Virus record (IMG/VR): IMGVR_UViG_3300000929_000292
Coordinates: 1-22,254 of that record
Source: a virus
Strand: one strand, 5' to 3'
DNA: 22,254 nt
Both the position numbers and the translations under genes were made by a program. The notes under the pieces are model-generated. The model saw only the letters and a program-made list of their open reading frames with translations, was not told the DNA's origin and made no database searches. Below, in pieces: positions 1 to 15,158 of the stretch (the first letter of the stretch is position 1; each line of letters begins with the position of its first letter).

Positions 1-128
1 GGTTTATAACCATCCTTTTTACTAAGATCAAGAAATAGCTTTTCAACATCAGACCAGCTATCAAACTTCATCTTTCGATGAGTCTTGTTATCAAATATCG
101 ATTTGAATATTGTTAGGCTATACTCCAT
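1..128 (-). CDS. Partial N-terminus of unknown phage protein (3' end outside window)
   Basis: An open frame starts with ATG at 126-128 and stays open to the left edge, giving about 42 residues that begin MEYSLTIFKSIFDNKTHRK. It starts 3 bases after the stop of the 57-aa gene upstream, so it belongs to the same transcript as the glycosyltransferase cluster. The pattern IFDNKT...F.SW.....L..LS...GYKP reminds me, from memory only, of the N-termini of phage primase/helicase-type replication proteins, in which a short leader of this form precedes the catalytic part. No catalytic motif is inside the window, so the function stays open. No strong Shine-Dalgarno sequence is seen. The reading frame itself is likely real because of the tight spacing and the absence of stops. 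Confidence 0.55.
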   Translation of the reverse strand, partial: MEYSLTIFKSIFDNKTHRKMKFDSWSDVEKLFLDLSKKDGYK

Positions 129-131
129 ATC

Positions 132-305
132 TTATTGGTCACTATCTGGTTCTGAGAAAAAGCTAGAAAAGGGATCTTCTGGTTTCTTGTAAACAATTCG
201 CTTAGTCTTCTTGGTTAGATGTTTGATACCCAAAAGTTTACCAAACTCAACCATCTTCTCAGCATCTTCAAATCTAACGTTAATTCTTTTTTTAATTTTC
301 ATCAT
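132..305 (-). CDS. 57-aa conserved small phage protein, paralogue of the upstream gene's C-terminal half
   Basis: ATGATG at 300-305 opens a 57-codon frame ending in TAA at 132-134. The start overlaps the last codons of the 94-aa gene in another frame, and the next gene begins 3 bases after the stop, which is the tight packing of a real phage gene. The product is basic at the N-terminus (MMKIKKRINVRFED) and acidic at the end. The core KINVRFED-(x)n-F-x-x-LLG-(x)n-TKKTK-x-x-x-Y aligns with residues 45-77 of the 94-aa neighbour (KLEIVFES...F..ATG......CFWYP). This suggests a duplicated small beta-alpha-beta domain. I know of similar short proteins in many phages as conserved hypotheticals, and no function is established to my knowledge. 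Confidence 0.7.
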   Translation of the reverse strand: MMKIKKRINVRFEDAEKMVEFGKLLGIKHLTKKTKRIVYKKPEDPFSSFFSEPDSDQ

Positions 306-576
306 TCATCCATCTCCAATTGTGATCGTGCTCATATGCAAATTCTGGATACCAAAAGCACGTTGATGCTTCTTTAACAGATAACCCAGTTGCTTCAACA
401 AAATGTTTTATATCATCTTCACTCTCAAATACAATCTCTAATTTAGCATGGCAATACTCATTGTGTTTATATTCAGGCATACCCCACCAGCCATGCATTA
501 CATCTTCTACACCATCAGCTCTAAGAAAGATGTTATTATCAACAGTGTTTACGTTTCTTACTTGCTTCTTACTCAT
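292..576 (-). CDS. 94-aa conserved hypothetical phage protein
   Basis: The start codon overlaps the stop of the glycosyltransferase gene by ATGA (573-576), indicating translational coupling. The protein has an N-terminal basic stretch, then a central WWGMPEY motif (residues 30-36). After that comes a segment KLEIVFESEDDIKHF followed by a Trp/Tyr-rich end (CFWYPEF). The order MPEY / K-x-x-V-x-F-x-x-x-x-D-x-x-x-F / WYP is one I associate with short conserved hypotheticals in diverse phages. No enzymatic motif or membrane segment is visible. The location directly after a DNA-sugar-transferase candidate could mean an accessory role in base modification, but that rests on context only. Confidence 0.75.
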   Translation of the reverse strand: MSKKQVRNVNTVDNNIFLRADGVEDVMHGWWGMPEYKHNEYCHAKLEIVFESEDDIKHFVEATGLSVKEASTCFWYPEFAYEHDHNWRWMNDEN

Positions 577-1517
577 TTCTTCTTCCAGTATGATTCTTCT
601 TTTTTCTTTTCTTCTTCAGTTGGTTCTCTGAAAACCATTCCATATTCATTGTTTTCGTATACAGGAACGATTCCTTCTTTGTATATAGGCTTTTGCTTGA
701 AAGAAGTGTAATCAACAAGGTGGTGTGTTCTTTGAAATCTCTTAGTTATTTCTACAACATCTGGGTGTTGGTCTTTCAGTGACTTGGCAAATGTATATCG
801 ATCATCGTATTCTTGATCAGCACCAGCATTGTATATGTCTTCAGTGTTACCGCCTTTCATTGTCATCGTTGTGATTTTTCCACATAGGAATGTATTGAAT
901 AACATCGTACACCAACCCTGCTTGAGAACTCTTAAAGATAAGTCAGTATCTTCATTATACTTACCTCTCCATCGAACATCAAGATCATTGGAAATTAAAA
1001 TGCAACTGTAGATTCTTGAGTTGAGATAATATGGAGTTTCCAGTAAGCTTATCTTAGTCGGTATAACAAACATACAGTAGTTCAATCCCGCCAACTTAAC
1101 ATTCTGATATCTGTCAGTGAAGTCTTCAGCAGCTCTAAAAATAGCACCAGTTGTTACTCTCCTCCTTCGATTATTATTAAATCTAAAAAAGTATCTGAGG
1201 TTGTCATCTAGCACCCAGTGTTTAGCGTGACCCTCACTCTTCGAATGCTCCCAAACCCAATTTCGAACTGGAATAGATCCACCGAGATAACCAGTAACTT
1301 CACATCTCTTTGCATATCGAGGATCTTCTCTGAATCCTTTAGGGAGTGTGAGTATCTTCTTAGGGTCAATAACCGCGGCGTAATCATCATACTCAGATTC
1401 TTCAATTACTATTCTGTATGGTGTATTCATAGCCTCTAGTGACCTTGAAGTAAATCTAGTATCAGCTCTACCTTTAGATATTATATAAATCGGGTATTTG
1501 TTAACTGTGTAATCCAT
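573..1517 (-). CDS. TET-associated-type glycosyltransferase (TAGT), putative DNA base sugar transferase
   Basis: This 314-aa protein matches the pattern I know for phage TET-associated glycosyltransferases, a GT-A-like family. The N-terminal strand-loop is PIYIISKGRADTRFTSR (residues 9-25), followed by IVIEE..YDDYAAV (36-49). IPVRNWVWEH occupies 82-91, and the metal/nucleotide-site-like WVLDDN 101-106. GAIFRAAEDF lies at 124-133 and RGKYNEDTDLSLR at 184-196, with a final TMTMKGGNT at 217-225. In the family these enzymes are thought to transfer sugars onto oxidised cytosines made by TET/JBP dioxygenases. No TET gene lies in this window. A lysine/glutamate-rich tail (EEEKKKEESYWKKK) ends the protein. 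The gene follows gp43 by 57 bases but has its own consensus-like promoter, and it overlaps the next gene by 4 bases. Other GT-A activities cannot be excluded; I am fairly sure of the family, less of the substrate. Confidence 0.85.
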   Translation of the reverse strand: MDYTVNKYPIYIISKGRADTRFTSRSLEAMNTPYRIVIEESEYDDYAAVIDPKKILTLPKGFREDPRYAKRCEVTGYLGGSIPVRNWVWEHSKSEGHAKHWVLDDNLRYFFRFNNNRRRRVTTGAIFRAAEDFTDRYQNVKLAGLNYCMFVIPTKISLLETPYYLNSRIYSCILISNDLDVRWRGKYNEDTDLSLRVLKQGWCTMLFNTFLCGKITTMTMKGGNTEDIYNAGADQEYDDRYTFAKSLKDQHPDVVEITKRFQRTHHLVDYTSFKQKPIYKEGIVPVYENNEYGMVFREPTEEEKKKEESYWKKK

Positions 1518-1538
1518 GATGTATTTTCTGTTTTTTGA

Positions 1539-1567
1539 ATTGTATATTAATTAAGAATGAATGTCAA
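1539..1567 (-). promoter_or_regulatory. sigma70-type promoter for the glycosyltransferase operon
   Basis: On the minus strand TTGACA (1562-1567) is followed, after exactly 17 bases, by TACAAT (1539-1544). Transcription would start near 1532, giving a leader of about 15 bases before the ATG at 1517. It sits in the gap between the gp43 stop and the glycosyltransferase start, so it is correctly placed for an early promoter read by host RNA polymerase. Confidence 0.8.
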
Positions 1568-1574
1568 ATACTTT

Positions 1575-4133
1575 TTAAGAGAAAAAGTCATCTAGTGAGG
1601 CTCTTTCCTCTGCTGACCAGTTTATAGCATTAAGTATTAAACTTATCGGATCTAAGAAAGCTTTTTGGAATTGCATTTCATAATCGATGTAAGAGTTTAG
1701 TTCCAATTCATCGGGTAACTCCTCAAGAAAAGCTATTACGTTTTCTCCAGTAGGATTCTCCTTTTTGAGAAAAACGAATTTTATCTTATCTCCATTCTGG
1801 ATTGATTTATACTTGTTCTCCAATCCAAGCATTTCAAGTCTCTTATTATAAACCAAACTAGCTCGACAGTGCATTGGAGTTCCCTTAACATATGTAGTTT
1901 GTGAATCGTAATACTTTGTAACACTCGTTACTCCCCGTGGTGAACCAACAGTGTGTGCTGGTAATGTCTTAAAGTGATCTTTGAATAAGCCAATTGCAGT
2001 TTGAGTTTTCTTCTCGTCTCCACTCAGTATTATTTTAAACATCTCTTTCATTGCAGATCTACATGCTTTGGGAGTTGAACTTTTAATAGCTTCAATACCC
2101 ATCATTTTAATTTGAGGTTCATTATATTGAACTCCTTCGTTATTGTGGACATTCAAAATGTATCTTTTCTTAGCAGTCCATATTGCTCTATCTGCGATAG
2201 CTTCCCTAGACATTACCATAGTATTCTTATATGCACATGTCAAATCAGCTAGTTTTTCATAAATACTTTCCAACATGGGTTCTAGAGCCTTGCTACCAAA
2301 TTCATCGAGAAATGAAATTGGATTTTTCGGGTTGAACTTGTCAATAACATCTTTAACATGCAAATAAACTGAGTCAGTATCGATAGCAATAACTCTGTCC
2401 TTAACCTTGTCTTCTTTAAGGAAATCTTTTGACAGCCATTCGTTAACATGCTTTTCAGCCCATCTAATAATAAGTTGACCAGTGAGTGTTATTCCTTCAG
2501 CGATGTTTATGTCAAAGTATCTAAAATATTGATTACCTAAAGCACCATAAAGTGAGTTCATGAGAATCTTTACCGCCATCTGTTCAGTGTCCAAAAGTGA
2601 TACTTCTTTCTCAAGTGACTCCAAATCACTGTAGTTGTCTTTGTTCTTTTCTGCTTTAAGCAATTCGATTTCACTCTTTTTACTGAGCATACTTCCTTTT
2701 ATTTTCTTTCGATTGTTATACAGTTCCTCAATAATCTCTGGAAGAAATCCCTTCTTGTTTTTGGTAAATACAGCACCATTAGCTGCAACTGCCAAATTCT
2801 CATCTTCTGTCAGTTTACATTGATCGTTTAATACTCTATCTGGGTTAATTCCAGGTATGGCAGAATGTCTCATCAGAGTTTCGGGACTCATGTTATATTG
2901 AATAATGATATTTGGATAGAGACTATTCAAGTCAAAACTCATTACCCAATCATACATTCCAGGTCTAACTTCTTTAACGAAACCACCTGGATAAGATTGC
3001 TTCTCACTCCTCTTTGATGGTGGAACTGCTATCTTCTTCTTTGCTAGTTTTCTGAAAATGATACTATCCCAAATCGATACAGTTCCAAGAGTATCGACAT
3101 AGTTAACACCACCGAGGTATGCTAGTGTGAATACCAACTCAATAAGTCCAAGTTTTTGCTCAAACCTTTCAATAAGTTCAACATCAACTATGTTATAATC
3201 AACAAACCTTTGGAAATCTTTCTCGTATAATTCTTTCAGACCACCAACATCTGAGTAGTCAATTTTATTTTGACCTAGAACAACTTCACCTATATTGTCT
3301 AACTTGTATGATTCTTGTTGTCCATACGTGTTAAGTGTAAATTTCTTAAATAAGTCCAAGTAATCAAGTGATTGAATTCCAGATAAGGTATAACTAATTT
3401 GCTCTCTTCCAAACATCATAACTTTTCTAGATGATATATCCTTCCAAGGGCTAAGATTTCTAACTTGGGTTTCACCCAGAACACGGGTTATCCTATTGAC
3501 GATATAGGGAATATCGAAGAAAGTTGTATTCCAACCAGTCACTACATCGGGTGTATTCTCTGGATCACTCCACCAATCCACAAAATTTTCGAGCATTTCT
3601 GACTCAGATTCGAATTGTCGATACTCCTTTTTGATATGAGGAACACTACTTGCAGAAGAGTCGTATTCTTTTAAACCCCAAATAATGTAAGTGTCACATC
3701 TGGAACTTTTAATAGCTATTGTTAGAATTTGCTCAGAAGCAACTTCTGGGTCAGAGAACCCCGCAGTCTCAGAAATTTCAGTTTCAATATCGATATAGAG
3801 AATGTCTATCATTCTCTTGTCATAATCCACTTTATCGGGGAACTGACTCTGAATGAATGCTGGTATATGCCTTTCGTTTCCGTATACGTGAAAAGATGGA
3901 ATGTCTTCGTATTGCTTGATGAACTTGGTGCATTCACTCATAGAGTCGAATCGAATGCTCTCAAGAGGTTTTCCACTAAGTGACTTCCACTCAGCATCTT
4001 GATCTTTACTCTCTAAGAATAATTCAGGACGATATCTATACGAATTGTATATCTTTTTACCATCATGATCGTAACCCCTATATTTTAGGTTATTCTTATG
4101 TCTGTCTACACTAGTATAAAATCCACTTATCAT
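1575..4133 (-). CDS. 43: DNA polymerase, family B, T4 gp43-like
   Basis: This replicative polymerase with 3'-5' proofreading has 852 residues, against about 898 for T4 gp43. The exonuclease motifs are Exo I YIDIETE (113-119, acidic D115/E117), Exo II GWNTTFFDIPYI (200-211, D207) and Exo III YNIVDVELI (313-321, D317). The polymerase motifs are A SFDLNSLYPNI (399-409), B KILMNSLYGALGN (522-534) and C AIDTDSVY (583-590), followed by a KKRY element. The C-terminus SLDDFFS is a clamp-binding tail like the end of T4 and RB69 polymerases. The N-terminus MISGFYTSVD lines up with T4 MKEFYISIE, which fixes the start. The gene stands apart from gp45/44/62/regA, from which it is separated by an adhesin block. 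A promoter lies immediately against the start codon, and no Shine-Dalgarno sequence is visible. Confidence 0.98.
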   Translation of the reverse strand: MISGFYTSVDRHKNNLKYRGYDHDGKKIYNSYRYRPELFLESKDQDAEWKSLSGKPLESIRFDSMSECTKFIKQYEDIPSFHVYGNERHIPAFIQSQFPDKVDYDKRMIDILYIDIETEISETAGFSDPEVASEQILTIAIKSSRCDTYIIWGLKEYDSSASSVPHIKKEYRQFESESEMLENFVDWWSDPENTPDVVTGWNTTFFDIPYIVNRITRVLGETQVRNLSPWKDISSRKVMMFGREQISYTLSGIQSLDYLDLFKKFTLNTYGQQESYKLDNIGEVVLGQNKIDYSDVGGLKELYEKDFQRFVDYNIVDVELIERFEQKLGLIELVFTLAYLGGVNYVDTLGTVSIWDSIIFRKLAKKKIAVPPSKRSEKQSYPGGFVKEVRPGMYDWVMSFDLNSLYPNIIIQYNMSPETLMRHSAIPGINPDRVLNDQCKLTEDENLAVAANGAVFTKNKKGFLPEIIEELYNNRKKIKGSMLSKKSEIELLKAEKNKDNYSDLESLEKEVSLLDTEQMAVKILMNSLYGALGNQYFRYFDINIAEGITLTGQLIIRWAEKHVNEWLSKDFLKEDKVKDRVIAIDTDSVYLHVKDVIDKFNPKNPISFLDEFGSKALEPMLESIYEKLADLTCAYKNTMVMSREAIADRAIWTAKKRYILNVHNNEGVQYNEPQIKMMGIEAIKSSTPKACRSAMKEMFKIILSGDEKKTQTAIGLFKDHFKTLPAHTVGSPRGVTSVTKYYDSQTTYVKGTPMHCRASLVYNKRLEMLGLENKYKSIQNGDKIKFVFLKKENPTGENVIAFLEELPDELELNSYIDYEMQFQKAFLDPISLILNAINWSAEERASLDDFFS

Positions 4134-4187: not shown

Positions 4188-5768
4188 CTAATCTTCGACC
4201 CAAACAGCAGATACGGAAACTCTCACAAGTTTTTCAGTTGATCTTGCTACAAACGATAATGAACTGTTGGGTGGGATTGCTATTCTAAGGTTACTCACAT
4301 CTACAGAGGAACTTCCACCACCTGGAACTTCAAATATGTAAATAGGAACGTTGTTTGCAGCTGCTATTGTAACATCTTGTGGATCTGAAGAAAAATAAGT
4401 GCTTGACTTCTCCTCGTTTATAGCCTCATAACTCAAATTAACTAAACCTTCAAAATTAGCATAAACGAATACTGAAACAGGTGTTCCACTCGGGTTAGTT
4501 AAGAATGACCCGTTGATTCTTTTTAGTAGAAGTTCTCTAGTGTTTACTTTGTTTTTATAAACCAATCTATTGTGGATCGTCAAAACGTGATGATCATCAT
4601 CAGCTGTTAAGTTAGGGACGGGATCAAGACCAACTCCAATTGAAGAAGGATATTTGGTATTTAGAATTAAACCTTCAATTGCACCCATCATTGATGCACC
4701 TGATACTGAAACTTCTGACCCAGAACCGCCAATAGAAGCTGCTACATATCCAACTTTTAGTGAGGGGTTGTCAAGATGAACATCATCATTTTTATTAGCA
4801 TATCTGATTTTATGGAAGATAATCATATCTCCATTGGTGGGGTTCTCTATTGCGAATCTGAGTTCACCTGCACCTAACCATCTGAAGTTTATCTGATAAA
4901 CATTAAGTTTAGTTGGATCAATTACTGAACCACTCGTTCCAGTTCCATCTAATTTATCTTCATTGAAATCTTCTTGGTAAGTCCAACTTTCTATATGATC
5001 TGCACCTTCTTGAGCAAGAGAAAGAGTTGAAGTTATTCCAGTAGAGCCAGTGTCTACGAATGAAAAAGAACCACTTTTAGATCCAACTGATTTTGAAAGG
5101 AAACAAACTTTATTACTAGAATACTCTGTGACCCAAGGGGAAGATAAAAACTGTTCATTTATTTTTGCACAAATTGCTCCAATAGTATCACCACTTAAGA
5201 CGGATACTACGTAGTCAGTGTCATCTAAGGTTAGTGTAATGTCTCCAGAAGAAGTTGCTTCAGTATCTATTTGGAAAGAATGAATGTGAGCTTTACCTCC
5301 GTTCTGAAGTAATACTCCAAACTTATCACCATCATAACCAACTTGAAGTGCTTGCTCTTGGGTAAAGAATCCCGCTCTTTGAGTATACCCAGGTATACCA
5401 GATGTAAATTGAGAAGTGAATCTTGTCATTGCACCTTGACCTGGGCGATATCTTACTGCTCTCTTTGATCTTATGACTCCGTATCCACCAAGTGAAGTTC
5501 CACTCTTACACTCCATTAAAGTTCCTGTGCTGTGCACTAATCCACCGTTCTCTGAGTAAGTTTCGAATGATGGATTATCTATTCCATATAAACCATCAAG
5601 TTGAAATACTGGTGTTATTTGAACACTGACATTTTCACCAAAAGCACTAACACTAGCTGCAGCTTGAGTTTTTACGGGGTTTCCATATTCATCAACCTGC
5701 ATACTAGCTTCAAACAATGTATCATTGTTGAAAATCCATTCTTGATCTTCTGTATTCCACTGAGCCAT
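4188..5768 (-). CDS. Virion structural / fibre-like protein, 526 aa
   Basis: A beta-rich protein with no signal peptide or membrane segment. Recognisable blocks are RYRPGQGAMTRFTS (residues 106-119), FFTQEQALQVGYDG followed by FGVLLQNGG (about 134-158), and a repeat-like LTLDDTDYVV segment. Then come DKLDGTGTSG...DPTKLNVYQINFRWLGAGELRFAIENP (about 272-310) and IFHKIRYANKN. I know this set (PGQ, DKLDGTG, LNVYQI.F.WLG.G...F.IE.P, VH.I.YAN.N) from uncharacterised virion-associated proteins of large phages and some large eukaryotic DNA viruses; that is recollection, not a search result. It is the last gene of the adhesin block before gp43. The start follows the previous stop by 12 bases with no Shine-Dalgarno sequence. 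A GATAAATA box lies only 5 bases upstream of the ATG. Exact role (capsid fibre, decoration or tail component) is not determinable here. Confidence 0.75.
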   Translation of the reverse strand: MAQWNTEDQEWIFNNDTLFEASMQVDEYGNPVKTQAAASVSAFGENVSVQITPVFQLDGLYGIDNPSFETYSENGGLVHSTGTLMECKSGTSLGGYGVIRSKRAVRYRPGQGAMTRFTSQFTSGIPGYTQRAGFFTQEQALQVGYDGDKFGVLLQNGGKAHIHSFQIDTEATSSGDITLTLDDTDYVVSVLSGDTIGAICAKINEQFLSSPWVTEYSSNKVCFLSKSVGSKSGSFSFVDTGSTGITSTLSLAQEGADHIESWTYQEDFNEDKLDGTGTSGSVIDPTKLNVYQINFRWLGAGELRFAIENPTNGDMIIFHKIRYANKNDDVHLDNPSLKVGYVAASIGGSGSEVSVSGASMMGAIEGLILNTKYPSSIGVGLDPVPNLTADDDHHVLTIHNRLVYKNKVNTRELLLKRINGSFLTNPSGTPVSVFVYANFEGLVNLSYEAINEEKSSTYFSSDPQDVTIAAANNVPIYIFEVPGGGSSSVDVSNLRIAIPPNSSLSFVARSTEKLVRVSVSAVWVED

Positions 5769-5773
5769 AGATA

Positions 5774-5781
5774 TATTTATC
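5774..5781 (-). promoter_or_regulatory. Late-promoter-like GATAAATA box at the start of the 526-aa gene
   Basis: The minus strand reads GATAAATA then TATCT then ATG. It matches 7 of 8 bases of the T4 late box TATAAATA. With the usual spacing, transcription would begin at the start codon itself. In such AT-rich DNA one mismatched box can be chance, so confidence is low. Confidence 0.35.
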
Positions 5782-5960
5782 TAAAATGTTTGTTCCAGAT
5801 AATCATCTGGAAATTGCAGTATATGAGCATCTATAGCTTCAGCTTCAGTTTCAAATTCTTGGACACTAGTTTCTGAGTTGTAGGATAAAATATTACCTTC
5901 GTTCAAAATAAACAAGCCTCTGTTGACTATGAAATATCCTTCTGTTTTTGTAATTATCAT
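5781..5960 (-). CDS. 59-aa hypothetical protein
   Basis: A short frame between the 304-aa and 526-aa genes. I take the ATG at 5958-5960, 11 bases after the previous stop, rather than an upstream TTG inside the preceding gene. The product begins MIITKTEGYFIVNRGLFILNEGN and continues as a compact beta-strand pattern ending in an acidic helix (FETEAEAIDAHILQF). There are no cysteines, no membrane segment and no catalytic motif. Position suggests a small tail- or fibre-associated protein. The frame is supported mainly by packing and codon continuity; the function is unknown. Confidence 0.6.
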   Translation of the reverse strand: MIITKTEGYFIVNRGLFILNEGNILSYNSETSVQEFETEAEAIDAHILQFPDDYLEQTF

Positions 5961-5971
5961 TTTATTAGTTG

Positions 5972-6886
5972 TTAAGCTGGGCCTCCATCTGAGATAGCCC
6001 AATTTTTAACGTTGAGTAAATAATCTCTTGCGACTGATGCGGGGCTATTCGGAGTGTATCTACTACTACCAAAATGCACACCCAATCCCGAATTAACGTT
6101 CTGATTAGAAATGCTTATAAGGAGTTTATCATAACTGCTAGTTGGGAGCTGTGAGTTCTTCATAAAATTACCCATGTTTGTTGCACTTTCAAAGTTGAGA
6201 TTTTCCAATCCAATTAAATCTCTAGCTCCTCTATTGGCGAACATTCCTGGCATCCAAGCTACACTTGATGTATCTAAATTTGATACGTCAATATCAGCTG
6301 AATTAACTCCGTTGAACATTCCCGCCATCCTAATCGCACTAGAAGTGTCCATAGTTGAGATATCAATGCTTGTCATATTGTTGCATTTAATAAACATATA
6401 ATCGAACGAAGTAATATTGGATGTATCTGTATTACCAGATACAAAGGATTCCAACGACCTACCTGCGAATGCAAACTCTAAGCTTTCATATCCAACTTTT
6501 CCAAGGTTAGATACACTTGGTATCGCATCCCAAATTGGAGGTGAAGAAGGAGGGGGCCACGCACCAGGTGATGGGAACACTCCACTTATGTTGACTTCAT
6601 ATAAATTTGTAGCTGGAAAAGTGTGTGTTAAATTGGGATCGTTATACGATGTTACAGATTGTGGTGGTGTTCCATCACCCCAATCGATTGTTGCATCATA
6701 AGTTCCAACGTTTCTTGCATAGTAAGCAAATGGTTGACCAGCTTCAGCATCTACAGTGAATGTCAGGTTTTCATTTACCTCTGGTGGTTGTGAGATGCCA
6801 TACTGAACAACAGGTGAATAAACGACTTTACCCACTGGTGATTTTAAAGGAACTTTATCTAGACTATTTCTTCTGTTGTTTGACAT
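5972..6886 (-). CDS. PKD + BspA/DUF285-type LRR adhesin-like protein, 304 aa
   Basis: A likely virion surface or receptor-recognition protein. After a basic N-terminal 30 residues comes a PKD-like beta-sandwich at about 41-105 (NVGTYDATIDWGDGT...LTHTF...YEVNISGVFP). A proline-rich linker (GAWPPPSSPP) follows. Residues about 128-295 carry a DUF285/BspA-type leucine-rich repeat region with units such as DTSNITSFDYMF and DTSSVAWMPGMF, ending in NWAISDGG. The WxISDGG ending closes each such module in this window. A clear Shine-Dalgarno sequence (AGGAG, about 9 bases before ATG) supports the start. The PKD part is nearly identical at DNA level to a stretch of the 1549-aa gene, so it is a duplicated or recombining module. 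No signal peptide, consistent with a phage structural protein. Confidence 0.85.
   Translation of the reverse strand: MSNNRRNSLDKVPLKSPVGKVVYSPVVQYGISQPPEVNENLTFTVDAEAGQPFAYYARNVGTYDATIDWGDGTPPQSVTSYNDPNLTHTFPATNLYEVNISGVFPSPGAWPPPSSPPIWDAIPSVSNLGKVGYESLEFAFAGRSLESFVSGNTDTSNITSFDYMFIKCNNMTSIDISTMDTSSAIRMAGMFNGVNSADIDVSNLDTSSVAWMPGMFANRGARDLIGLENLNFESATNMGNFMKNSQLPTSSYDKLLISISNQNVNSGLGVHFGSSRYTPNSPASVARDYLLNVKNWAISDGGPA
6669..6713 (-). repeat. 45-bp repeat, copy 1 (PKD module)
   Basis: This 45-base stretch in the 304-aa gene matches 10974-11018 in the 1549-aa gene with a single mismatch. It encodes the core NVGTYDATI(D/E)WGDGT of the PKD-like domain. A second, less exact match lies just downstream in the genes (around 6629-6655 and 10930-10962). 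Confidence 0.9.
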
Positions 6887-6914
6887 GATTACACTCTCCT
6901 ATAGTTTACTTATA

Positions 6915-7424
6915 CTATGCGTTAGGGTTTATTCCTTCACCAACATCTGAAAATGGATCTAAAATATCGGAAAACTGTTGCTCCGTAATTTGAAGATATT
7001 GGATAATACCAGCTCTGTTGTCGATAACAATGGAGTTACTAGACTTGACCTCTTGTGTTAGATTCCAAGCATCGTAACTATCTTCGTCAAGAGTTTGAAG
7101 AACTTCTTTGAAGCTTACCCATTTTCCAATAAATTGAAGTCTCTTCATCAGTGTCAATTTAGAAATGCCATCTTCTTCTGTGCTTTCATTCGTAATTGTT
7201 TCTAAAGAGGATTCGATCCAATTAACTTCAGTATCAGTTAGATTAGTAACCCACTGATTACCACTAGCTGGTTCTTCTGTTGGCATAGGTAATAATGGTA
7301 TATACTTGTAACCTGATGGACTAGACCAAGTTGAAGGATCACCAACTTCTCTCGTTAAAGGATACCCTTTAATATTATCTATTACGATCTCTAGTGGATC
7401 AATTTGAATTAATACGTGTTTCAT
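6915..7424 (-). CDS. Hypothetical protein, possible fibre-assembly accessory, 169 aa
   Basis: A protein of 169 residues starting two bases after the stop of the giant adhesin gene. The N-terminus is MKHVLIQIDPLEIV. A middle region is rich in Pro, Thr and Trp. A helical part KLTLMKRLQFIGKWVSFKEVLQTL (about 90-113) is followed by AWNLTQEV and an ITEQQFSDIL element. The pattern L.RL..IGKW..FK..L........W.L.Q resembles small proteins I associate with phage tail or adhesin genes. An adhesin-specific chaperone or assembly role would fit its position between two PKD/LRR genes, but nothing in the sequence proves it. No catalytic motif, signal or membrane segment is present. Confidence 0.7.
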   Translation of the reverse strand: MKHVLIQIDPLEIVIDNIKGYPLTREVGDPSTWSSPSGYKYIPLLPMPTEEPASGNQWVTNLTDTEVNWIESSLETITNESTEEDGISKLTLMKRLQFIGKWVSFKEVLQTLDEDSYDAWNLTQEVKSSNSIVIDNRAGIIQYLQITEQQFSDILDPFSDVGEGINPNA

Positions 7425-7426
7425 TT

Positions 7427-10400
7427 TTATAAGTTTTGATATTTACCTTCACTGCTGGCTAACCACTTAATCTCTTGAATATTCAGTGCTTTGTCAAATA
7501 CGCAGGCGTCATCAATGATTCCACTAGCATTCGAGGTAGCATAACCATTATTCCAAGTTCCTATTTCTAAGTAATTGCTTGTTACATCTAGCGTGCTTGG
7601 AGCTGGTTGACTCGCAACTAACTCTCCGTTTATATAAAGTTTATGTTTTAAGTTTACAGGATCATAAACACCAGCTAAGTGATACCACGTTTGCGGTGTC
7701 AAGTATTGACTACTCGTTTCTGCAAAAGGTGATACTGCACCTGCACCGTTACCAGATACTATAAATCTAGCGCGACCTGAACCTTCAAGATATAGGAGAC
7801 TTTTTCTTTGGTTTCCGTCACCAACCCAGTTTCCAACCAAACCATAACCAGAACCACTGGGGTCACTTGCATTTGGTTTGAACCAACATGCTAAAGTGTG
7901 TTCACCAGTAGGGAATGAGGCTGTGCCTTTAATGCTAGAGTTGCTTGATGTGAATACTGCACCATTACCACCATTCCTACTAGCACCATAAGATATACCC
8001 GTACTTGTCAAATTGTATCCACCAGAGTGTGAGTCTGTAGAGTCTTGCTCAAATTCATACCAAGATTTTAGATTTTCAATTGGGGGTTTTGGTAGAAGTT
8101 CAGCACTCTTCCTTCCTGCACCCGAATTATACAACCAGCTTATATTTGAGGTATTTAATGGTGTATTCCACATACCATTCCCAAACAGGCTTCCCGCGAA
8201 TTTAGTTTCGTCAAAACTGAAACTCCAAGCTGCAACTCCGAGTGTAAGGTTTAGATTTGAATTTGGAAAAGTTGAATTGACAGGAGTTCCTGTTCCTTGA
8301 AGAACACCATCTACGTAAAATTTACTTTCATTTTCAGAAGAATCTTGTGTGAGAGTGAGCATATACCATCTATCAGCCTCAACTTGAATATCGTCAGCTG
8401 AAATGACGTTTGCAAATTCATTATCACCTCCATATAAACTCTCAGTCGGGCCGTCATTATTTGCACTAGAGTATATGATTTGAGCGAATTTAGGAGTTGC
8501 TGAAGACCCTCTCCAATTCATAACCCAGTTCCCCCATAAACCAGTTCTCAAAGAGTCAAATTTAGCCCATATATTGAAAGTGTATGCATCTGAGTAACCA
8601 AGTGAAGTTGGATTTGCACTCAAGTTCATGTATCCATTATGCCCCATACTAAGACAGTTACTTGATCCATCGGGCGACCCGTATTGTGTGACATAGCAAT
8701 TAGATACTGTTGTGAAATCTAAGCTTCCTATTCCATCCTTTCCACTAGTGTTTACCAGATCGTGGTAAGCTACTGGAACTGGTAGTTCTACTTTATATTC
8801 AAATGTAGTAGAACTTGTATAGAGTGATGAAATTTCTGAAGGTGTTAGTGTCGTGTCATAAATGGTAACGTTCTGAAGACCACCTTCTAGTGTATCCAAT
8901 TGACTTGTATGAGTGAAGTCTGCGAGGCTTAATGGTGAAGTTATGTCACTTGTAGCAAGACTGCCTATAGACTCACTGCCATTAGATTCAACACCATCAA
9001 TGTAAAATTTAACGTTAGTTCCATCACCAGTGACTACTACGTGATGCCAATCATTATCCCATACAAATCCAGATGTATCGAAACTGTTATAACTAGCTGT
9101 ACCACTACCATTAGTTACATATAATCTAAGTGCAGAAGGTGAACCGCTTGCAACTAAATTATCAAACATAAACCCGAAGCCAACTTGGGAGGTTAATATG
9201 TTTGTGCCTAAAATCCTCCACACATAATCACTACTTAAATTGCCGTCAAGTCTAACAAGAGATTCAATTGTGAATACTCCTGTCTTTGGTATAAATGAGA
9301 ATTCTCCAGCCTGTCCGCAATTAACGACTCTTCCATTACCAGTTGGATTGAATGTTGGTGATATAGTGCCAGTAAGTGCACTATCGTAATCCCTAGAACC
9401 ACTAGATGAGGCCCACTCTTGACCATCTACATTCGCATAGTCACCGTTGTTCGATGATATATCATCAATTGCAACTGAACCAGAATCTTCATCTAACTTC
9501 CATCTAGATACTGGTTGTAAAAATGTCTGCTCTGTGATGTAATCTGAAGTGGAAGCATCAAAGCCTCCATCTGAGATATTCCATCCTTTAGTATCTGTTA
9601 AGTTAGAGTAACTAGTTCTGGAAGATGAATCGTATAGACTTGAACCACCATCAAAAGTGACGTTAGTATTTGTATTGATGGAGTCTAACTTTTTGATAAA
9701 ATCCGAATAAGACAGAGTAGTTGCAGCTACACCTGTAAACATCCCAGTTCCATCGTTCATGTTTGTGGGTGATAAGTCAGTTCCTATATTCACTAGGCTA
9801 GAGCAATCGAAAAATGTATTAGTAAAATCTGATAAATTACTTAAAATCAAACCTGCGGTTGATTGAATGAATTTACAACCAGAGAACATATCAGTTCCAG
9901 TTGTAACTGAATCCAAGGTCAAGTCTGTTGGCAGAGATTTTAGATTTTTACAACCATTAAATATGCTGTTAGCTGTTAATGCGTTACTGAGTGTTAATGA
10001 TGATGGAAGTGACTCTACCATAGAACCAGAAAATAAATTTGAAACATCTGTTGACGACTCCAGGTCGAACCCATCTTTAATTGCTATTCTTTCATCACTG
10101 ACTGGAATTGGATATGTTTTCCATTCTTTGACTGTTATACCCTCTTGTGCATGTGTTGATCTCCATGCACTATCATACTCAGCAAGATAGTCTGGGTGAA
10201 CATAAATTGTGCATATTTGGTGGAATCTCATTGATTGAGAACCAGTGAATATGCTAGCTGGTGAGTTAACGTAATATCTACGTTCAACTGTATTTCCGTT
10301 TAATGCTGAAAATGCATTAGTGCCTATACTAGTTAGAGTTGTTGGTAAAATAATATCACCACCATACTGACCGCTTTGAAATGCACTGTTGCTAATAGTT

Positions 10401-12076
10401 TCTAACCCCTCACTGAAGTTCAGTGTTATACCAATCTGTGATGCTTGGAAGAAAGCGTCATTGCTGATATAGGTTACGTTACTTGGTATATTAATCTCAT
10501 TACAATCATGTTGCCTAAATGCAGCTGAACCTATCGATGTTACATTTGACCCGAATGATATACCCCGAACATCAGCATCATACCTCGCCCAGTTACCTGG
10601 TATAGTACCTGATACTGATCTTACAGCACTACCTGAGCTATCGTAAACAGTTGTATCTGTTGTTTGTGGTGTAGTATCTACATTATTGATAGCACCACAA
10701 CCCTTAAACATTGAATCTGTATTGGTGCATAATGGGAATGAACTATCACCCGCTACAAATATCAAGTTTGAACATCCCTCAAAAGAGTTACTACTGTCGG
10801 TGTTACTTTCACCATAAGAACCCCAGTTAGCTATAGCAACAAGTCTATCTTTATAATTTGAATTTGAAAAATTTAACTTTGGAAAATCACCAGAAACACT
10901 TATTATGTATTCACCAAATGAGGGGTATGTGTGACTTAAGTTAGGATCATTATACGATGTTATCGAGGATGATGTTCCATCACCCCACTCGATTGTTGCA
11001 TCATAAGTTCCAACGTTTTCAGCTGGTAGAGTGAAGCTGTTTTGATTCGTGACATTAACAACTAATTCTAAACTTGTGAACTCTTCTTGTGGTCCTGCAT
11101 CTGTTATAGTTCTAGTTAATTTTAACTTCTCCCTTGCCCATATTGCATCCTTTCTGAATTTACAAGAGCCGTTTCCAGGTGATCTGATTCCTACAATTTT
11201 AGTGAAGTTCAATGTTGCCCAGTAAATCAAAGCATCAGACCAGATATCATCATCTCTGAGAGTATCAGAGAGAAATCCTAAATTATCAGCGCGGAATATG
11301 TTCCAATTTCTATAGTCAATTTTTACATTGTAGCAACCGCTGAATGCATTACTCCAGTATCTAAGATTACCAGTACTCCAGTTGGCAGTTCCAAATTCTT
11401 CCAGCCTAGAACAACCTCTAGCCATTTGATCAATACGATTCGTACTTCCAAGTATCCAGTTGTCGGCACCCAATACTCTTTCTAGTTTTGAATCACTATT
11501 GAATGCAATATACAATGCACTACTTGAACTAAAATGACAATTAACACCTCTAGTATCAACCTCTACGAGTTGATAGTTTCTTCTAAAGCAATAGTAAAAG
11601 CTGGTTATCTTATCAACCATATCCTTGAGAGGAGGGATTGAGGTTATTCCATAAGCACTAATAAGGAATTTTTCAAAACTGCTACTAGCCACATTGGGTA
11701 AACCAGGAGTTCTGTATATGCTAGTTAATAGAGTACAATTTCCAAATGCATGAAACCAATTAGTCCATCCAACATCACCAAGATCCAAAACTTTTCTCAG
11801 GTTACCTCTAGTAGAACCATTTCTCAACATGTATATTCTAGGGAATTTACCAGTAATGGATACCGTGTAAGTTCCAGCAGTGGTGTAAACATGTTCAATG
11901 AAAGAAGGTGAACCACGAAACGTTTCCTTGTTTCCATCACCCCAATCGATTCTACAATCGTAAGTTCCAGCGACACCAATTTTTATGTTGAAGTTATCAG
12001 AGGTTGTTACCCATTCTGATATGAAAGGAAATTCCTTTCCTGGCTTTTTGCCTTGAGCTATATTTAATCCACTCAT
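7427..12076 (-). CDS. Giant multidomain adhesin: PKD, DUF285/BspA LRR and LamG-like domains, 1549 aa
   Basis: Domain order from the sequence: PKD-like 1 (about 30-80, VAGTYDCRIDWGDGN); DUF285-type LRR 1 (about 95-328, closing with RTITDAG); PKD-like 2 (about 335-400, NVGTYDATIEWGDGT). A short LRR segment follows at 425-465. A BspA LRR_5 segment lies at about 495-635, with repeats such as GSNVTSIGSAAF and LETISNSAF and a VHPDYLAEY unit typical of its end. DUF285-type LRR 2 spans about 660-840, closing with GWNISDGG. Three concanavalin/LamG-like jelly rolls follow at about 856-1080, 1085-1330 and 1340-1549, each with WYHLAGVYD- or WYMLTLTQD-like cores. Such domains bind glycans or protein receptors, so I infer a tail-tip or capsid adhesin. 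It starts one base after the tail-fibre-repeat gene stop. No signal peptide. The exact virion location is unknown. Confidence 0.9.
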   Translation of the reverse strand: MSGLNIAQGKKPGKEFPFISEWVTTSDNFNIKIGVAGTYDCRIDWGDGNKETFRGSPSFIEHVYTTAGTYTVSITGKFPRIYMLRNGSTRGNLRKVLDLGDVGWTNWFHAFGNCTLLTSIYRTPGLPNVASSSFEKFLISAYGITSIPPLKDMVDKITSFYYCFRRNYQLVEVDTRGVNCHFSSSSALYIAFNSDSKLERVLGADNWILGSTNRIDQMARGCSRLEEFGTANWSTGNLRYWSNAFSGCYNVKIDYRNWNIFRADNLGFLSDTLRDDDIWSDALIYWATLNFTKIVGIRSPGNGSCKFRKDAIWAREKLKLTRTITDAGPQEEFTSLELVVNVTNQNSFTLPAENVGTYDATIEWGDGTSSSITSYNDPNLSHTYPSFGEYIISVSGDFPKLNFSNSNYKDRLVAIANWGSYGESNTDSSNSFEGCSNLIFVAGDSSFPLCTNTDSMFKGCGAINNVDTTPQTTDTTVYDSSGSAVRSVSGTIPGNWARYDADVRGISFGSNVTSIGSAAFRQHDCNEINIPSNVTYISNDAFFQASQIGITLNFSEGLETISNSAFQSGQYGGDIILPTTLTSIGTNAFSALNGNTVERRYYVNSPASIFTGSQSMRFHQICTIYVHPDYLAEYDSAWRSTHAQEGITVKEWKTYPIPVSDERIAIKDGFDLESSTDVSNLFSGSMVESLPSSLTLSNALTANSIFNGCKNLKSLPTDLTLDSVTTGTDMFSGCKFIQSTAGLILSNLSDFTNTFFDCSSLVNIGTDLSPTNMNDGTGMFTGVAATTLSYSDFIKKLDSINTNTNVTFDGGSSLYDSSSRTSYSNLTDTKGWNISDGGFDASTSDYITEQTFLQPVSRWKLDEDSGSVAIDDISSNNGDYANVDGQEWASSSGSRDYDSALTGTISPTFNPTGNGRVVNCGQAGEFSFIPKTGVFTIESLVRLDGNLSSDYVWRILGTNILTSQVGFGFMFDNLVASGSPSALRLYVTNGSGTASYNSFDTSGFVWDNDWHHVVVTGDGTNVKFYIDGVESNGSESIGSLATSDITSPLSLADFTHTSQLDTLEGGLQNVTIYDTTLTPSEISSLYTSSTTFEYKVELPVPVAYHDLVNTSGKDGIGSLDFTTVSNCYVTQYGSPDGSSNCLSMGHNGYMNLSANPTSLGYSDAYTFNIWAKFDSLRTGLWGNWVMNWRGSSATPKFAQIIYSSANNDGPTESLYGGDNEFANVISADDIQVEADRWYMLTLTQDSSENESKFYVDGVLQGTGTPVNSTFPNSNLNLTLGVAAWSFSFDETKFAGSLFGNGMWNTPLNTSNISWLYNSGAGRKSAELLPKPPIENLKSWYEFEQDSTDSHSGGYNLTSTGISYGASRNGGNGAVFTSSNSSIKGTASFPTGEHTLACWFKPNASDPSGSGYGLVGNWVGDGNQRKSLLYLEGSGRARFIVSGNGAGAVSPFAETSSQYLTPQTWYHLAGVYDPVNLKHKLYINGELVASQPAPSTLDVTSNYLEIGTWNNGYATSNASGIIDDACVFDKALNIQEIKWLASSEGKYQNL
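10974..11018 (-). repeat. 45-bp repeat, copy 2 (PKD module)
   Basis: This is the partner of 6669-6713, with 44 of 45 bases identical, inside the second PKD-like domain of the 1549-aa gene. The first PKD domain of the same gene (about 11930-11965) shares only the CCATCACCCCAATCGATT part, so copies 1 and 2 are the closer pair. Confidence 0.9.
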
Positions 12077-12077
12077 C

Positions 12078-12788
12078 TTAAGTTGTCACCCAAAGGAAGA
12101 AGTTAACACCATCGTGTGTATCCCAAGAGATTTTACCTATGGTATTTGGCAACATACCTGAAGTGTAAACAGTATCTCCATTCATTATAGTGTAATTCGA
12201 ATCCAGTGTTAGCAGGTGACCACCAACTGAATCTTGCACAATTGATAATGTTCCATTTAAACCTGCAGTTGCATTCGTTATATTTTCCAGAAGACAATCT
12301 GAAGTTAAAGTAAGAATAGCATTAACTCCATTACTACAATCATAAGAAACTGTTGGGCCAGAAACTAGTGTTTGTGGAGAGAGATAATCATTAACTCTAG
12401 CTGTGAAACTAGAGATATCAACTTTCAAATCTAAAGCAGCTGTGTTAGCTGCAATTGAGTTCGTTACAGTGGAAGAGAAATTCTCATCATCACCAAGAGC
12501 TGCAGCTAGTTCATTGAGTGTGTTTAAAGCTTCGGGTGCAGAGTCAACTAAACTTTCGACACTACTTGCAACATTAGTTGAGATCTCAGAGTCGATTTCA
12601 GCTTTAGTATACGTATCTGATTTGTCAGCTTTTAAATCTAACTGTGCTTGTGATGCACTACTAACTGGCTTATCCAGGTCTGAAGTATTGTCAACATTAC
12701 CCAAGTCAAGTGAGGTACATGCCTCAACTTTATCAATACTCTGCAAGAATATATCTATATCCTCTTTTATTATCACATGTTCTGGCAT
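12078..12788 (-). CDS. Tail-fibre-repeat protein, 236 aa
   Basis: The N-terminal half carries classic phage tail-fibre repeat text: LDLGNVDNTSDLDKPVSSA (28-46), LDLKADKSDTYTKAEID (50-66), and APEALNTLNELAAALGDDENF (84-104) followed by VTNSIAANTAAL. These segments form the elongated trimeric shaft of many fibres. The C-terminal half (about 130-236) is beta-rich (LTLTSDCLLENI, GTLSIVQDSVGGHLLTL, GKISWDTHDGVNFFLWVTT), probably a compact tip or a joint to the next fibre piece. It precedes the giant adhesin by one base, suggesting both belong to one fibre or adhesin assembly. A perfect TATAAATA late box lies 40 bases upstream. Confidence 0.88.
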   Translation of the reverse strand: MPEHVIIKEDIDIFLQSIDKVEACTSLDLGNVDNTSDLDKPVSSASQAQLDLKADKSDTYTKAEIDSEISTNVASSVESLVDSAPEALNTLNELAAALGDDENFSSTVTNSIAANTAALDLKVDISSFTARVNDYLSPQTLVSGPTVSYDCSNGVNAILTLTSDCLLENITNATAGLNGTLSIVQDSVGGHLLTLDSNYTIMNGDTVYTSGMLPNTIGKISWDTHDGVNFFLWVTT

Positions 12789-12827
12789 TTTATTCTTTCT
12801 AGGTTATTGATTTTTCGTTATAATAAT

Positions 12828-12835
12828 TATTTATA
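12828..12835 (-). promoter_or_regulatory. T4-type late promoter box TATAAATA
   Basis: A perfect 8-base TATAAATA on the minus strand lies immediately after the stop of the 534-aa gene and 40 bases before the start of the tail-fibre-repeat gene. Transcription would begin near 12822, leaving a leader of about 34 bases. It is correctly oriented and placed for late expression of the adhesin genes. Confidence 0.7.
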
Positions 12836-12836
12836 T

Positions 12837-14441
12837 TTATGATAATCTCACAGAAAGTGATTCATTATCACTATTGTAGTATGAAGGATATTCTGAGAAA
12901 ACACTATCTAGAGTATCATAGTTATAATCACTGGTTACATCATTTGTCATTAAAGCAAAACCAAGTAAATTGATTTCTTTTACTGATCCATCATAAAACT
13001 TTGTTGTTCCAGATGTATAAGGATTCCATGTCACGAATCGTGTTCCATCTGTTTTTACCATCTCAAACAATGGCATACCCTTATTAATAAGCTGTTCATA
13101 AAGATAGAAATCTGGACTATCACTTTTTTCAATAGTAAGATCACCACCAGTTAAGCTAAGTTTGTATCCAATCAAAGAGCTTTCTGACTCTAGATTATCC
13201 ATTTCTTCAAATGTAGTCTGATTGACGAGATCTCTATTTAACGTTTTTTGTCTTACATCATCACGATCATCACCAAATACTAAGTAGCACCTTACCCATA
13301 TACCTCTTCTTGTGGATAGATTATATCTTCTTACACACGTAGAGACGAGGTAATTTCTAAAGTCGCCTTCACTAACATTTGGATCTAATGTTAAAGGTTG
13401 TGTGTATCCCATTCGTATGAAGTTTGGACTGCTACTATATGAATCGGGTAATCCACCATCTTGACCATAAACCCAACCCATTGAATGCCCATCACCATTT
13501 TCTTCAGAACTAAATACGAACCATCCACCAGTATCTTCTGTTTTTCTTATTGGTTCTGCCCAATGACCAGTTAAAGGATCGTAAGTCTGCTGATCACTCT
13601 GTGTATAAAATCCATGATCCATCGAAGTTCTTCTTACTCCACCCCACGGCATGTTGTGCCAATCATAGGTATCGGGACCGAAATTATAATGACCTAGAGT
13701 TACTTCAATTACTCCATCACCTAAATCTTTATACTTCGTTAAATTTAATAAATACGATTTGCGATCTAATTGATAAGAGCCTCCATCATTACTCGGTTGA
13801 CTCCAGTTTATAGAATAAAAGCTTTTATCATTTTCATCTATTTGTGTAGCGAGTCTAGGGGTGTAATAAGGCTCATTTAATTCAGGGTTAGCTAGATAAA
13901 CCCCCGAACTATGGTTATATGGTGTAGGAGTTGCTGTTTGGTCTACTGCTACTGTTTGCCATACTTCATCGACCCAAGGTGCAACATCACCTTGAGTTTT
14001 TTGCGGAGGTACAGTTTCACCTAATTCGTCAGTAATCAAAGAGTAAATCTGACCACCCTTTCCAACTCTCAACTCCCAATCTTGACTTGAAATAAGTGTA
14101 TCAGCAACCAGATCTTCACTATATGCAGTACCCCATACTGAACCAGAAGAATCATATTCACCTCTTGTAATGCTTACTGGTGTTGAACTGTTACTAGATA
14201 CTGTGCTAGAAGGGAATGAAGACTTAAAGTCAGTTAGACCCAATATGAGGTATTTGTAATCTTGGATAGTTTCTTCGTAAACAACGTAAGATGATTTAAG
14301 ATCTGGTCTTTTATACATGGATGAACCATCAGGCCTCTTGTAGAAAAAGGTGATTTCACCTTCATCTATCACTGCTGGTTTCACTACATCTTTTACAGCC
14401 GAAGCAAAAGAAGTAGCGGAAATCGATGGTCTGCCGTTCAC
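12837..14441 (-). CDS. Uncharacterised 534-aa protein in the adhesin block, enzyme-like
   Basis: GTG is the likely start (14439-14441), preceded by AAGGA about 11 bases upstream and 6 bases after the stop of the 97-aa gene; the next Met is at residue 42. I do not recognise a named family with certainty. The protein has dense runs of Trp, Gly and Asp that look conserved: ELRVGKGGQIYSL (about 123-135), APWVDEVWQTVAV (153-165), LGHYNFGPDTYDWHNMPWGG (253-272), then GGWFVFSSEENGDGHSMGW (about 310-328) and VRRYNLSTRRGIWVRCYLVFG (354-374). Such motif density is more like a carbohydrate-active or other hydrolytic beta-sandwich enzyme than a fibre shaft. No signal peptide or transmembrane helix. Position between a small Ig-like protein and a fibre protein suggests a virion-borne enzyme (for example, acting on host surface glycans), which is inference only. 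Confidence 0.8.
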   Translation of the reverse strand: MNGRPSISATSFASAVKDVVKPAVIDEGEITFFYKRPDGSSMYKRPDLKSSYVVYEETIQDYKYLILGLTDFKSSFPSSTVSSNSSTPVSITRGEYDSSGSVWGTAYSEDLVADTLISSQDWELRVGKGGQIYSLITDELGETVPPQKTQGDVAPWVDEVWQTVAVDQTATPTPYNHSSGVYLANPELNEPYYTPRLATQIDENDKSFYSINWSQPSNDGGSYQLDRKSYLLNLTKYKDLGDGVIEVTLGHYNFGPDTYDWHNMPWGGVRRTSMDHGFYTQSDQQTYDPLTGHWAEPIRKTEDTGGWFVFSSEENGDGHSMGWVYGQDGGLPDSYSSSPNFIRMGYTQPLTLDPNVSEGDFRNYLVSTCVRRYNLSTRRGIWVRCYLVFGDDRDDVRQKTLNRDLVNQTTFEEMDNLESESSLIGYKLSLTGGDLTIEKSDSPDFYLYEQLINKGMPLFEMVKTDGTRFVTWNPYTSGTTKFYDGSVKEINLLGFALMTNDVTSDYNYDTLDSVFSEYPSYYNSDNESLSVRLS

Positions 14442-14447
14442 TTGTTA

Positions 14448-14741
14448 TTAGTCCTTAATAGTCACATTAACAGCGGGTGCTGATGTAGCACCAGTGATAG
14501 TGTATCTAATTAAGCATCTTCCAAGTGCAATAGTGTGGATTTCATCCTCTGTTATTTCCAAAAGATCACCACTTGATTTCTTTAGAGTAATGAATGTAAC
14601 ACCACTATCGAATGAAGCTTCAACTGTTAATGTTCCACCACCAAAGTCACCATAAAAGGCAAAAGTTGATTCTGAAGAATTATATTTAAGAGGTTCTGAA
14701 GTAACATCTGGAGCTGGTCCGCTGATTATTTGAGTTGCCAT
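14448..14741 (-). CDS. Small beta-sandwich protein of the structural block, 97 aa
   Basis: A 97-residue all-beta protein beginning MATQIISGPAPDVTSEPL. The central GDFGGGTLTVEASFDSGVTFITL (about 31-53) is a strand-turn-strand pattern common in small phage virion proteins with an Ig-like or jelly-roll fold. The end is RYTITGATSAPAVNVTIKD. No cysteine, signal or membrane segment. It lies 63 bases after the 117-aa gene; the A-rich stretch before its ATG has no Shine-Dalgarno sequence. An ACTAAATA element around 14774-14783 is a weak late-box resemblance. Probably a virion component; its exact place is unknown. Confidence 0.72.
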   Translation of the reverse strand: MATQIISGPAPDVTSEPLKYNSSESTFAFYGDFGGGTLTVEASFDSGVTFITLKKSSGDLLEITEDEIHTIALGRCLIRYTITGATSAPAVNVTIKD

Positions 14742-14804
14742 ATTTTTGTTTGTTTTTTAATTTGCTATGTTAAGGTATTTAGTATATAATAATACTTAAA
14801 AAAT

Positions 14805-15158
14805 TTACTTTAAAAGATCTGTTACAGTTTTGCTCTTCTCCCAAAACTTACAAGACCAATAACGAGCTTTCCATTTTGGTCCTGGATCTGTATCGCATTT
14901 ATGTCTAGCTCTGAAACTTTTCAATCTTGCGGGGTTGTCACGTTTTATATCAGTGTTGGGGTCTCCAAAACCTAACTTTATTATGTTGCCCTTTTCATTC
15001 TTAACATAAACATAAAACTTCTTCTTGTCGTCATCAGAACGAAATGGATCATTGAGTTTAACTTTGCGACCCTTATACTCAACCTCTTCGATCTTACTGG
15101 CATTTAAAACTTTTTGAGCAGCTTCTTCTAGGCTACCTTTTTTGAACTCCCTCGACAT
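14805..15158 (-). CDS. Conserved phage protein with ARYWSCKFW ending, 117 aa
   Basis: A basic protein whose second half reads KFYVYVKNEKGNIIKLGFGDPN (47-68), then IKRDNPARLKSFRARHKCD (71-89) and KARYWSCKFW (97-106). I recognise this arrangement (VKN..GN..K..FGDP....RD.P.....FRARH.CD........ARYWSC..W) from conserved proteins of many tailed phages, where it occurs alone or attached to head-assembly proteins; the function is not firmly known. The two cysteines and the histidine (H86, C88, C102) could bind a metal. It is the first gene after the hsp20 terminator, and a perfect TATAAATA box sits just 6 bases before the ATG, so its mRNA may have no leader. The assignment to virion assembly is inference. 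Confidence 0.82.
   Translation of the reverse strand: MSREFKKGSLEEAAQKVLNASKIEEVEYKGRKVKLNDPFRSDDDKKKFYVYVKNEKGNIIKLGFGDPNTDIKRDNPARLKSFRARHKCDTDPGPKWKARYWSCKFWEKSKTVTDLLK

Follow-up and report, generated by a model that had tools for sequence, protein, structure and literature searches.

A TET-associated-type glycosyltransferase and its small partner protein, a probable DNA-directed pair in phage replication modules

The window, which is the whole stretch of DNA analysed here (22,254 nucleotides), is a 22-kb virus fragment from an incomplete genome, and it carries a TET-associated-type glycosyltransferase (TAGT) together with a small overlapping gene, S94, which is an obligate TAGT partner, adjacent or fused, among the loci searched. 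The two genes probably encode an early two-part glycosyltransferase, which is most likely DNA-directed and protective; both the DNA acceptor and the protection are what we infer. TAGT and S94, possibly with a third small S94-like ORF, would act as an early-expressed unit of the phage replication module, in which TAGT would be the catalytic GT-A domain and S94 a dedicated accessory domain, probably for substrate binding or presentation. The pair would most likely glycosylate phage DNA while it is being replicated or afterwards, and thereby block host nucleases. The S94-TAGT pairing is the new contribution of this study; an earlier note on this DNA, made from its letters and ORFs, did not mention ORF 292-576. 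The features are collected in Table 1.

Table 1. Features of the TAGT-S94 locus in the window and of the genes inserted between S94 and TAGT in relatives
Feature	Position	Strand	Remarks
Primase-like gene (by position), start only	1..128	(-)	cut by the window end
57-aa ORF, short S94-like module (KRINVRFEDAEKMVEFGKLL...TKKTKRIVY)	132..305	(-)	overlaps the end of S94; tentative
S94 partner, 94 aa	292..576	(-)	ATGA overlap of its start with the TAGT stop; TAGT neighbour or fusion
TAGT glycosyltransferase, 314 aa, predicted GT-A type	573..1517	(-)	PF20691; DDN metal/NDP-sugar motif and NED motif
Sigma-70-type promoter TTGACA-17-TACAAT before TAGT	1539..1567	(-)	conserved here in relatives
gp43 family-B DNA polymerase	1575..4133	(-)	phrog_262, E 4.6e-296; 5' neighbour of TAGT
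Inserts between S94 and TAGT	L191 5240-5944; L198 5192-6043; L228 6274-7356

The TAGT gene and its surroundings

The ORF at 573-1517 matches Pfam PF20691 over the full profile (residues 8-223 against positions 1-205 of 205, E 1.3e-38, 133.5 bits, with a curated cut-off of 27.5 bits), which bears out the earlier note's identification of this ORF as a TAGT. It also matches phrog_842, 'beta-glucosyl-HMC-alpha-glucosyltransferase' (E 4.7e-43). Of 200 distinct full-length relatives, 194 retain the DDN metal-site motif. A sequence search for solved structures found none. In an AlphaFold2 model of a fused homologue, L197, the TAGT domain has a pLDDT mostly above 90, and Foldseek with this model returned GT-A glycosyltransferases, the best being the collagen galactosyltransferase COLGALT1 (E 5.6e-6), with low TM-scores. 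Judged from the model, the TAGT domain is predicted to be of GT-A type fold with a D-x-D-like metal-binding motif.

The TAGT gene lies directly downstream of gp43, beside which the earlier note had placed it. The nearest match of the window polymerase is that of Phage C48C1, a Kyanoviridae genome, at 47% identity. The closest relative, L002 / G001, possesses a TAGT that is 96% identical to that of the window; G001 spans 65.5 kb, and the primase-like gene is intact in it (37290-38228).

Several other features of this region were observed. Between gp43 and a 117-aa ORF, the window has about 10.6 kb (4189-14814) of genes that look virion-structural or adhesin-like, with one phrog_1645 match; the matching ends are only about 40 bases apart in G001, so that a cassette was either gained by insertion or lost. 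The clamp-loader genes gp44 and gp62 are separated by an HNH-endonuclease-like ORF (16663-17025, PHROG matches with E to 1.9e-7), which overlaps the gp62 start. In L002 / G001 (40227-42869), the interval between the TAGT operon and uvsX holds six small paralogous genes in tandem, built from repeats of the type WYQNGKRHRLDGPA. In many relatives (L003-L081), moreover, TAGT is preceded immediately or closely by a gene for a MazG-like nucleotide pyrophosphatase, of which at least three types occur, and a link to dNTP-pool control is possible.

The early promoter

The early-type promoter described by the earlier note is present before TAGT, with TTGACA at 1567-1562, TACAAT at 1544-1539 and a 17-base spacer, and it is also seen in relatives. 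The (-) strand of the window has four sites with a score of at least 11/12, where a first-order Markov model predicts 0.4. Each of the four closely precedes a replication-module gene, the genes being those for a CobS-like ATPase, the clamp, gp43 and TAGT. In L002, the TAGT promoter reads TTGACA-17-TATAAT, a 12/12 consensus, and both hexamers are retained there despite a diverged spacer sequence, which points to conservation of the hexamers. Such a site precedes TAGT in 42%, gp43 in 48% and the clamp gene in 72% of cases among polymerase-linked relatives, compared with 13% for other genes.

S94, an obligate partner of TAGT

S94 is characterized by the pattern W-x-x-MPE(F/Y), followed by F..ED...F and then by (W/Y)-x-P or WYP, and no matching family was found in Pfam, PHROGs or NCBIfam. 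The S94 profile also matches the orthologues of the 57-aa ORF in L149, L151 and L152.

The pairing was examined from both sides. Starting from TAGT (80 viral loci plus the window), S94 is adjacent or fused in 78 of 81 loci, 74 by ORF calling and four by tblastn, and in the other three the TAGT ORF runs off the contig. Starting from S94, TAGT is present in 173 of 176 loci (79, plus 21 in bacterial or archaeal assemblies, plus 76), a figure in which S94 far from TAGT is possibly under-sampled because similarity to S94 seeds linked to TAGT decided the ranking of the matches; the three exceptions stop shortly after S94 at contig ends. The two sets have some contigs in common. Apparent cases of S94 without TAGT, or of TAGT without S94, were rejected, as they were either ORF-caller artefacts that tblastn resolved or contig ends.

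Where the two genes are separate, they overlap in 139 of 142 distinct pairs, of which 99 have the order S94 then TAGT and 43 the order TAGT then S94. In addition to these pairs, 14 fused S94-TAGT proteins were found; S94 is the N-terminal domain of the TAGT proteins of Aeh1, phiAS5, Kuja, PTm1, POP12 and Vibrio phage 1.124, and many metagenomic fusions contain two S94-like modules. The overlap in both gene orders and the fusions are strong evidence that TAGT and S94 form one functional unit. A mirror-tree comparison of the two proteins gave r 0.50, which none of 1000 permutations reached, and r dropped to 0.19 among pairs more than 35% diverged, so that this correlation lends the pairing modest support only.

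At 29 loci, a ParB-like domain at the N-terminus is followed by S94 at the C-terminus of the same protein. At some loci, an FkbM-type methyltransferase, a GT4-like gene or a second TAGT-like glycosyltransferase is inserted between S94 and TAGT, which hints that the sugar, once attached, might be elaborated further.

Modelled alone, the window S94 reached a pLDDT of 62.7, which is low confidence. In the L197 model, residues 121-130 (about 90 pLDDT) hold the start of the MPE motif, and the two S94 modules are otherwise weak. As both proteins modelled weakly in this part, no fold is claimed for S94. The S94 alignment has invariant columns M, P and P, and no invariant Ser, Thr, Asn or Cys.

Search for acceptor-making genes

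The earlier note proposed that the TAGT acts on a base of the 5-hydroxymethylcytosine (5hmC) type. The genes that could make such a base were searched for in 69 virus records with the window's TAGT branch, which are mostly fragments and of which 63 are metagenomic. Tet_JBP (PF12851) was found in none of the 69 carriers at E <= 1e-3, while the controls (C48C1 and three TET contigs) were positive. DNA_methylase (PF00145) was found in just two, one being a fragment in Vibrio phage 1.124 and the other lying at a contig end. Thymidylat_synt (PF00303), whose profile detected gp42 in the positive controls T4, T6 and RB69, occurs in five of the 69, all of them cultured phages, and in none of the 63 metagenomic carriers, which include G001 and seven contigs of more than 120 kb.

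By sequence, Aeh1, phiAS5 and POP12 have ordinary thymidylate synthases as their PF00303 enzymes. That of Kuja is a divergent dUMP-type enzyme of the thymidylate synthase family, encoded 7 kb away from the two TAGTs of this phage. In PTm1, an ordinary-looking thymidylate synthase occurs together with a second, divergent protein of the TS superfamily. Seven carrier contigs of 121-334 kb had no match to PF12851, PF00145 or PF00303, and no TET/JBP, C5-methyltransferase or T4-type dCMP hydroxymethylase was found in G001. A source of 5hmC via gp42, TET or a C5-methyltransferase was thus generally missing from the 69 carrier records searched, and this route was rejected as the rule.

An acceptor of the 5hmC type is accordingly not borne out. 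The earlier note had suggested searching for a hydroxymethyl source and had held that its absence from the genome would speak against this acceptor; run in relatives, the search found none in G001 or in the seven contigs above 120 kb. Since most records are fragments and the window genome is incomplete, the classical route could still operate in this particular phage.

A common but unrecognised acceptor-making enzyme was considered as well, and it was rejected: when nine carrier genomes (eight of them large) were compared with two relatives that bear TET, TAGT and S94 were all that remained. Among the eight large carriers, which include two cultured phages, the sole non-core family that is present in all and absent from the two TET-bearing relatives is TAGT, in a screen that is blind to families also present in both controls and to likeness at the level of fold only. 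The 2OG-Fe oxygenases (PF13640) were likewise rejected as a general acceptor source, being found in only 4 of the 17 carrier records tested.

Conversely, none of 15 loci with a C48C1-type TET had TAGT or S94 within the fetched flanks. With TET absent from the carriers and TAGT and S94 absent near TET, 'TET-associated' is merely a family name here. Two loci with a TET homologue have features of their own. In C48C1 (OQ984149.1 49583-53030, equal to locus L134 10584-14031), the TET/JBP homologue (PF12851, E 3.3e-19) is followed by a glycosyltransferase-like and then a UDP-galactopyranose-mutase-like ORF, both recognised by eye, in a genome without TAGT, which suggests a galactofuranose-type TET hypermodification. 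The T4-like contig L339 (2006-8702) carries gp43, a MazG-like gene, a primase-like gene and then a TET homologue, which occupies the module where relatives have TAGT-S94; TET and TAGT-S94 were never seen together.

Comparison with known systems

One close precedent is the ggt gene of T2 and T6, which encodes beta-glucosyl-HMC-alpha-glucosyltransferase and, like the window TAGT, belongs to PF20691 and lies in the gp43-uvsX interval of a T-even phage. T6 ggt adds a second glucose onto alpha-glucosyl-5hmC. Unlike the window TAGT, it has no S94 and adjoins gp42, the dCMP hydroxymethylase, and it is too distant for the profile of the window's TAGT branch to detect. The companion gp42 of the T2/T6 type, sought as PF00303, was not found in G001 or in the 62 other metagenomic carriers. 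Because T6 ggt is itself a TAGT, with gp42 beside it in the same interval, T-even phages were already known to include a TAGT.

The alpha- and beta-glucosyltransferases of T4 (GT63/GT72) resemble the proposal for the window in that they glucosylate phage DNA and are encoded near replisome genes, but they have a GT-B fold, TAGT being GT-A, and are unrelated to it (PMC13216743). The earlier note was thus right to set the T4 enzymes apart from TAGT; its further point, that TAGT would be a different route in a T4-like phage, loses its novelty for T-even phages to T6 ggt.

The fusions of Aeromonas phages Aeh1 and phiAS5, Vibrio phage Kuja, Tenacibaculum phage PTm1 and Pectobacterium phage POP12 belong to the same TAGT branch (42-46% identity) and include an S94 domain, which is N-terminal in one protein, whereas in the window S94 is a separate overlapping gene downstream. 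According to a previous study, a glucosyltransferase of Aeh1, which is not necessarily the S94-TAGT fusion, 'presumably modifies DNA, unknown base' (PMC8056088, citing Iyer et al. 2013). The systems that combine TET/JBP with TAGT have the family name in common with the present pair, while TET is found in 0 of 69 S94-TAGT records. In the ParBc-associated DNA methyltransferase and CmoX systems, a ParB-like domain is linked to a DNA-modifying enzyme (PMC12783734); in the S94 loci, by contrast, the enzyme is a glycosyltransferase and is joined to the ParB-like domain through S94. The S94 of the window has no ParB-like part, unlike the ParB-fused loci.

Probable target of the pair

Several observations point to DNA. 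The TAGT gene lies between gp43 and primase/uvsX, similar to T6 ggt, which lies between gp43/gp42 and uvsX, and in the prophage-like assemblies L235, L237 and L240 the pair is found just 5' of terminase-like genes. The characterised members of PF20691, those of T2 and T6, act on DNA (PMC13216743), and ParBc domains accompany DNA methyltransferases and the CmoX hypermodification enzyme (PMC12783734). A DNA-modifying role, which the earlier note had put forward, is therefore still the best reading, given the replication-module position, the early promoter and the family; what did not stand is the specific route through 5hmC.

The eight large carriers have no acceptor-making enzyme in common, so DNA would be the acceptor without the usual supporting gene. 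We tentatively suggest, as one possibility among several, that S94-TAGT glycosylates DNA without a prior 5-hydroxymethylpyrimidine, using either an ordinary base or a handle from an unrecognised enzyme, with S94 and its ParB-like fusions serving as a targeting subunit. Such a route would be distinct from those of T4, T6, RB69 and TET, and would be widespread in aquatic phages and some prophages.

It is rather unlikely that TAGT glycosylates 5hmC or 5hmU supplied by an enzyme whose gene lies beyond the fragment, or by a divergent one that the profiles missed. T6 ggt, next to gp42, acts in this way, both PTm1, with its second TS-superfamily protein, and Kuja, with its divergent enzyme near two TAGTs, offer candidates, and the MazG-like NTP pyrophosphatase genes that often precede TAGT in relatives are reminiscent of dNTP-pool control. 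However, PF00303 is missing from all 63 metagenomic carriers, including the seven above 120 kb, Aeh1, phiAS5 and POP12 have canonical thymidylate synthases only, and TET (0/69) and PF00145 (2/69) are absent or nearly so.

A target other than DNA is also unlikely. The pair might glycosylate a surface polysaccharide, a virion or host protein, or RNA, with S94 recruiting the substrate, and the failure to find a hydroxymethyl source in the carriers would agree with this. Genes for a nucleotide-sugar epimerase, UDP-glucose dehydrogenase, cytidylyltransferase and GT4 enzymes are often located near TAGT in relatives, which counts against a DNA target, and in cyanophages such sugar-nucleotide genes have been interpreted as clusters for surface polysaccharides (PMC7824862). 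The FkbM methyltransferase, GT4 or second TAGT gene between S94 and TAGT (L191, L228, L198) is likewise reminiscent of glycan-building operons, and the structural matches are to GT-A enzymes of a general kind, collagen galactosyltransferase among them. Against this stand the ParB-like fusions of S94, the replication-module and terminase-adjacent positions, the early promoter in common with gp43 and the clamp, and the activity of the T2/T6 family members on DNA.

That S94 itself is the acceptor or payload of TAGT, so that the pair would serve as an anti-host effector and not to modify DNA, is very improbable: a small obligate partner, translationally coupled in either gene order, would fit, but at many loci S94 forms one protein with TAGT or with a ParB-like domain, and it is duplicated in fusions, which suits a binding module, and its alignment offers no invariant Ser, Thr, Asn or Cys.

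Significance

A previous survey counted 288 of 753 phage genomes that have a TAGT and no alpha- or beta-glucosyltransferase, and proposed these TAGTs as possible novel transferases (PMC13216743). For a large branch of such TAGTs, the present results supply a partner protein and a coupling rule, and the search for the usual acceptor-making genes came out negative. Cultured carriers in which mass spectrometry could read the acceptor are Aeh1, phiAS5, 65, POP12, PTm1 and Kuja. Should the acceptor be something other than a hydroxymethylated base, S94-TAGT would represent a new kind of DNA modification, which base-specific type IV defences may miss.
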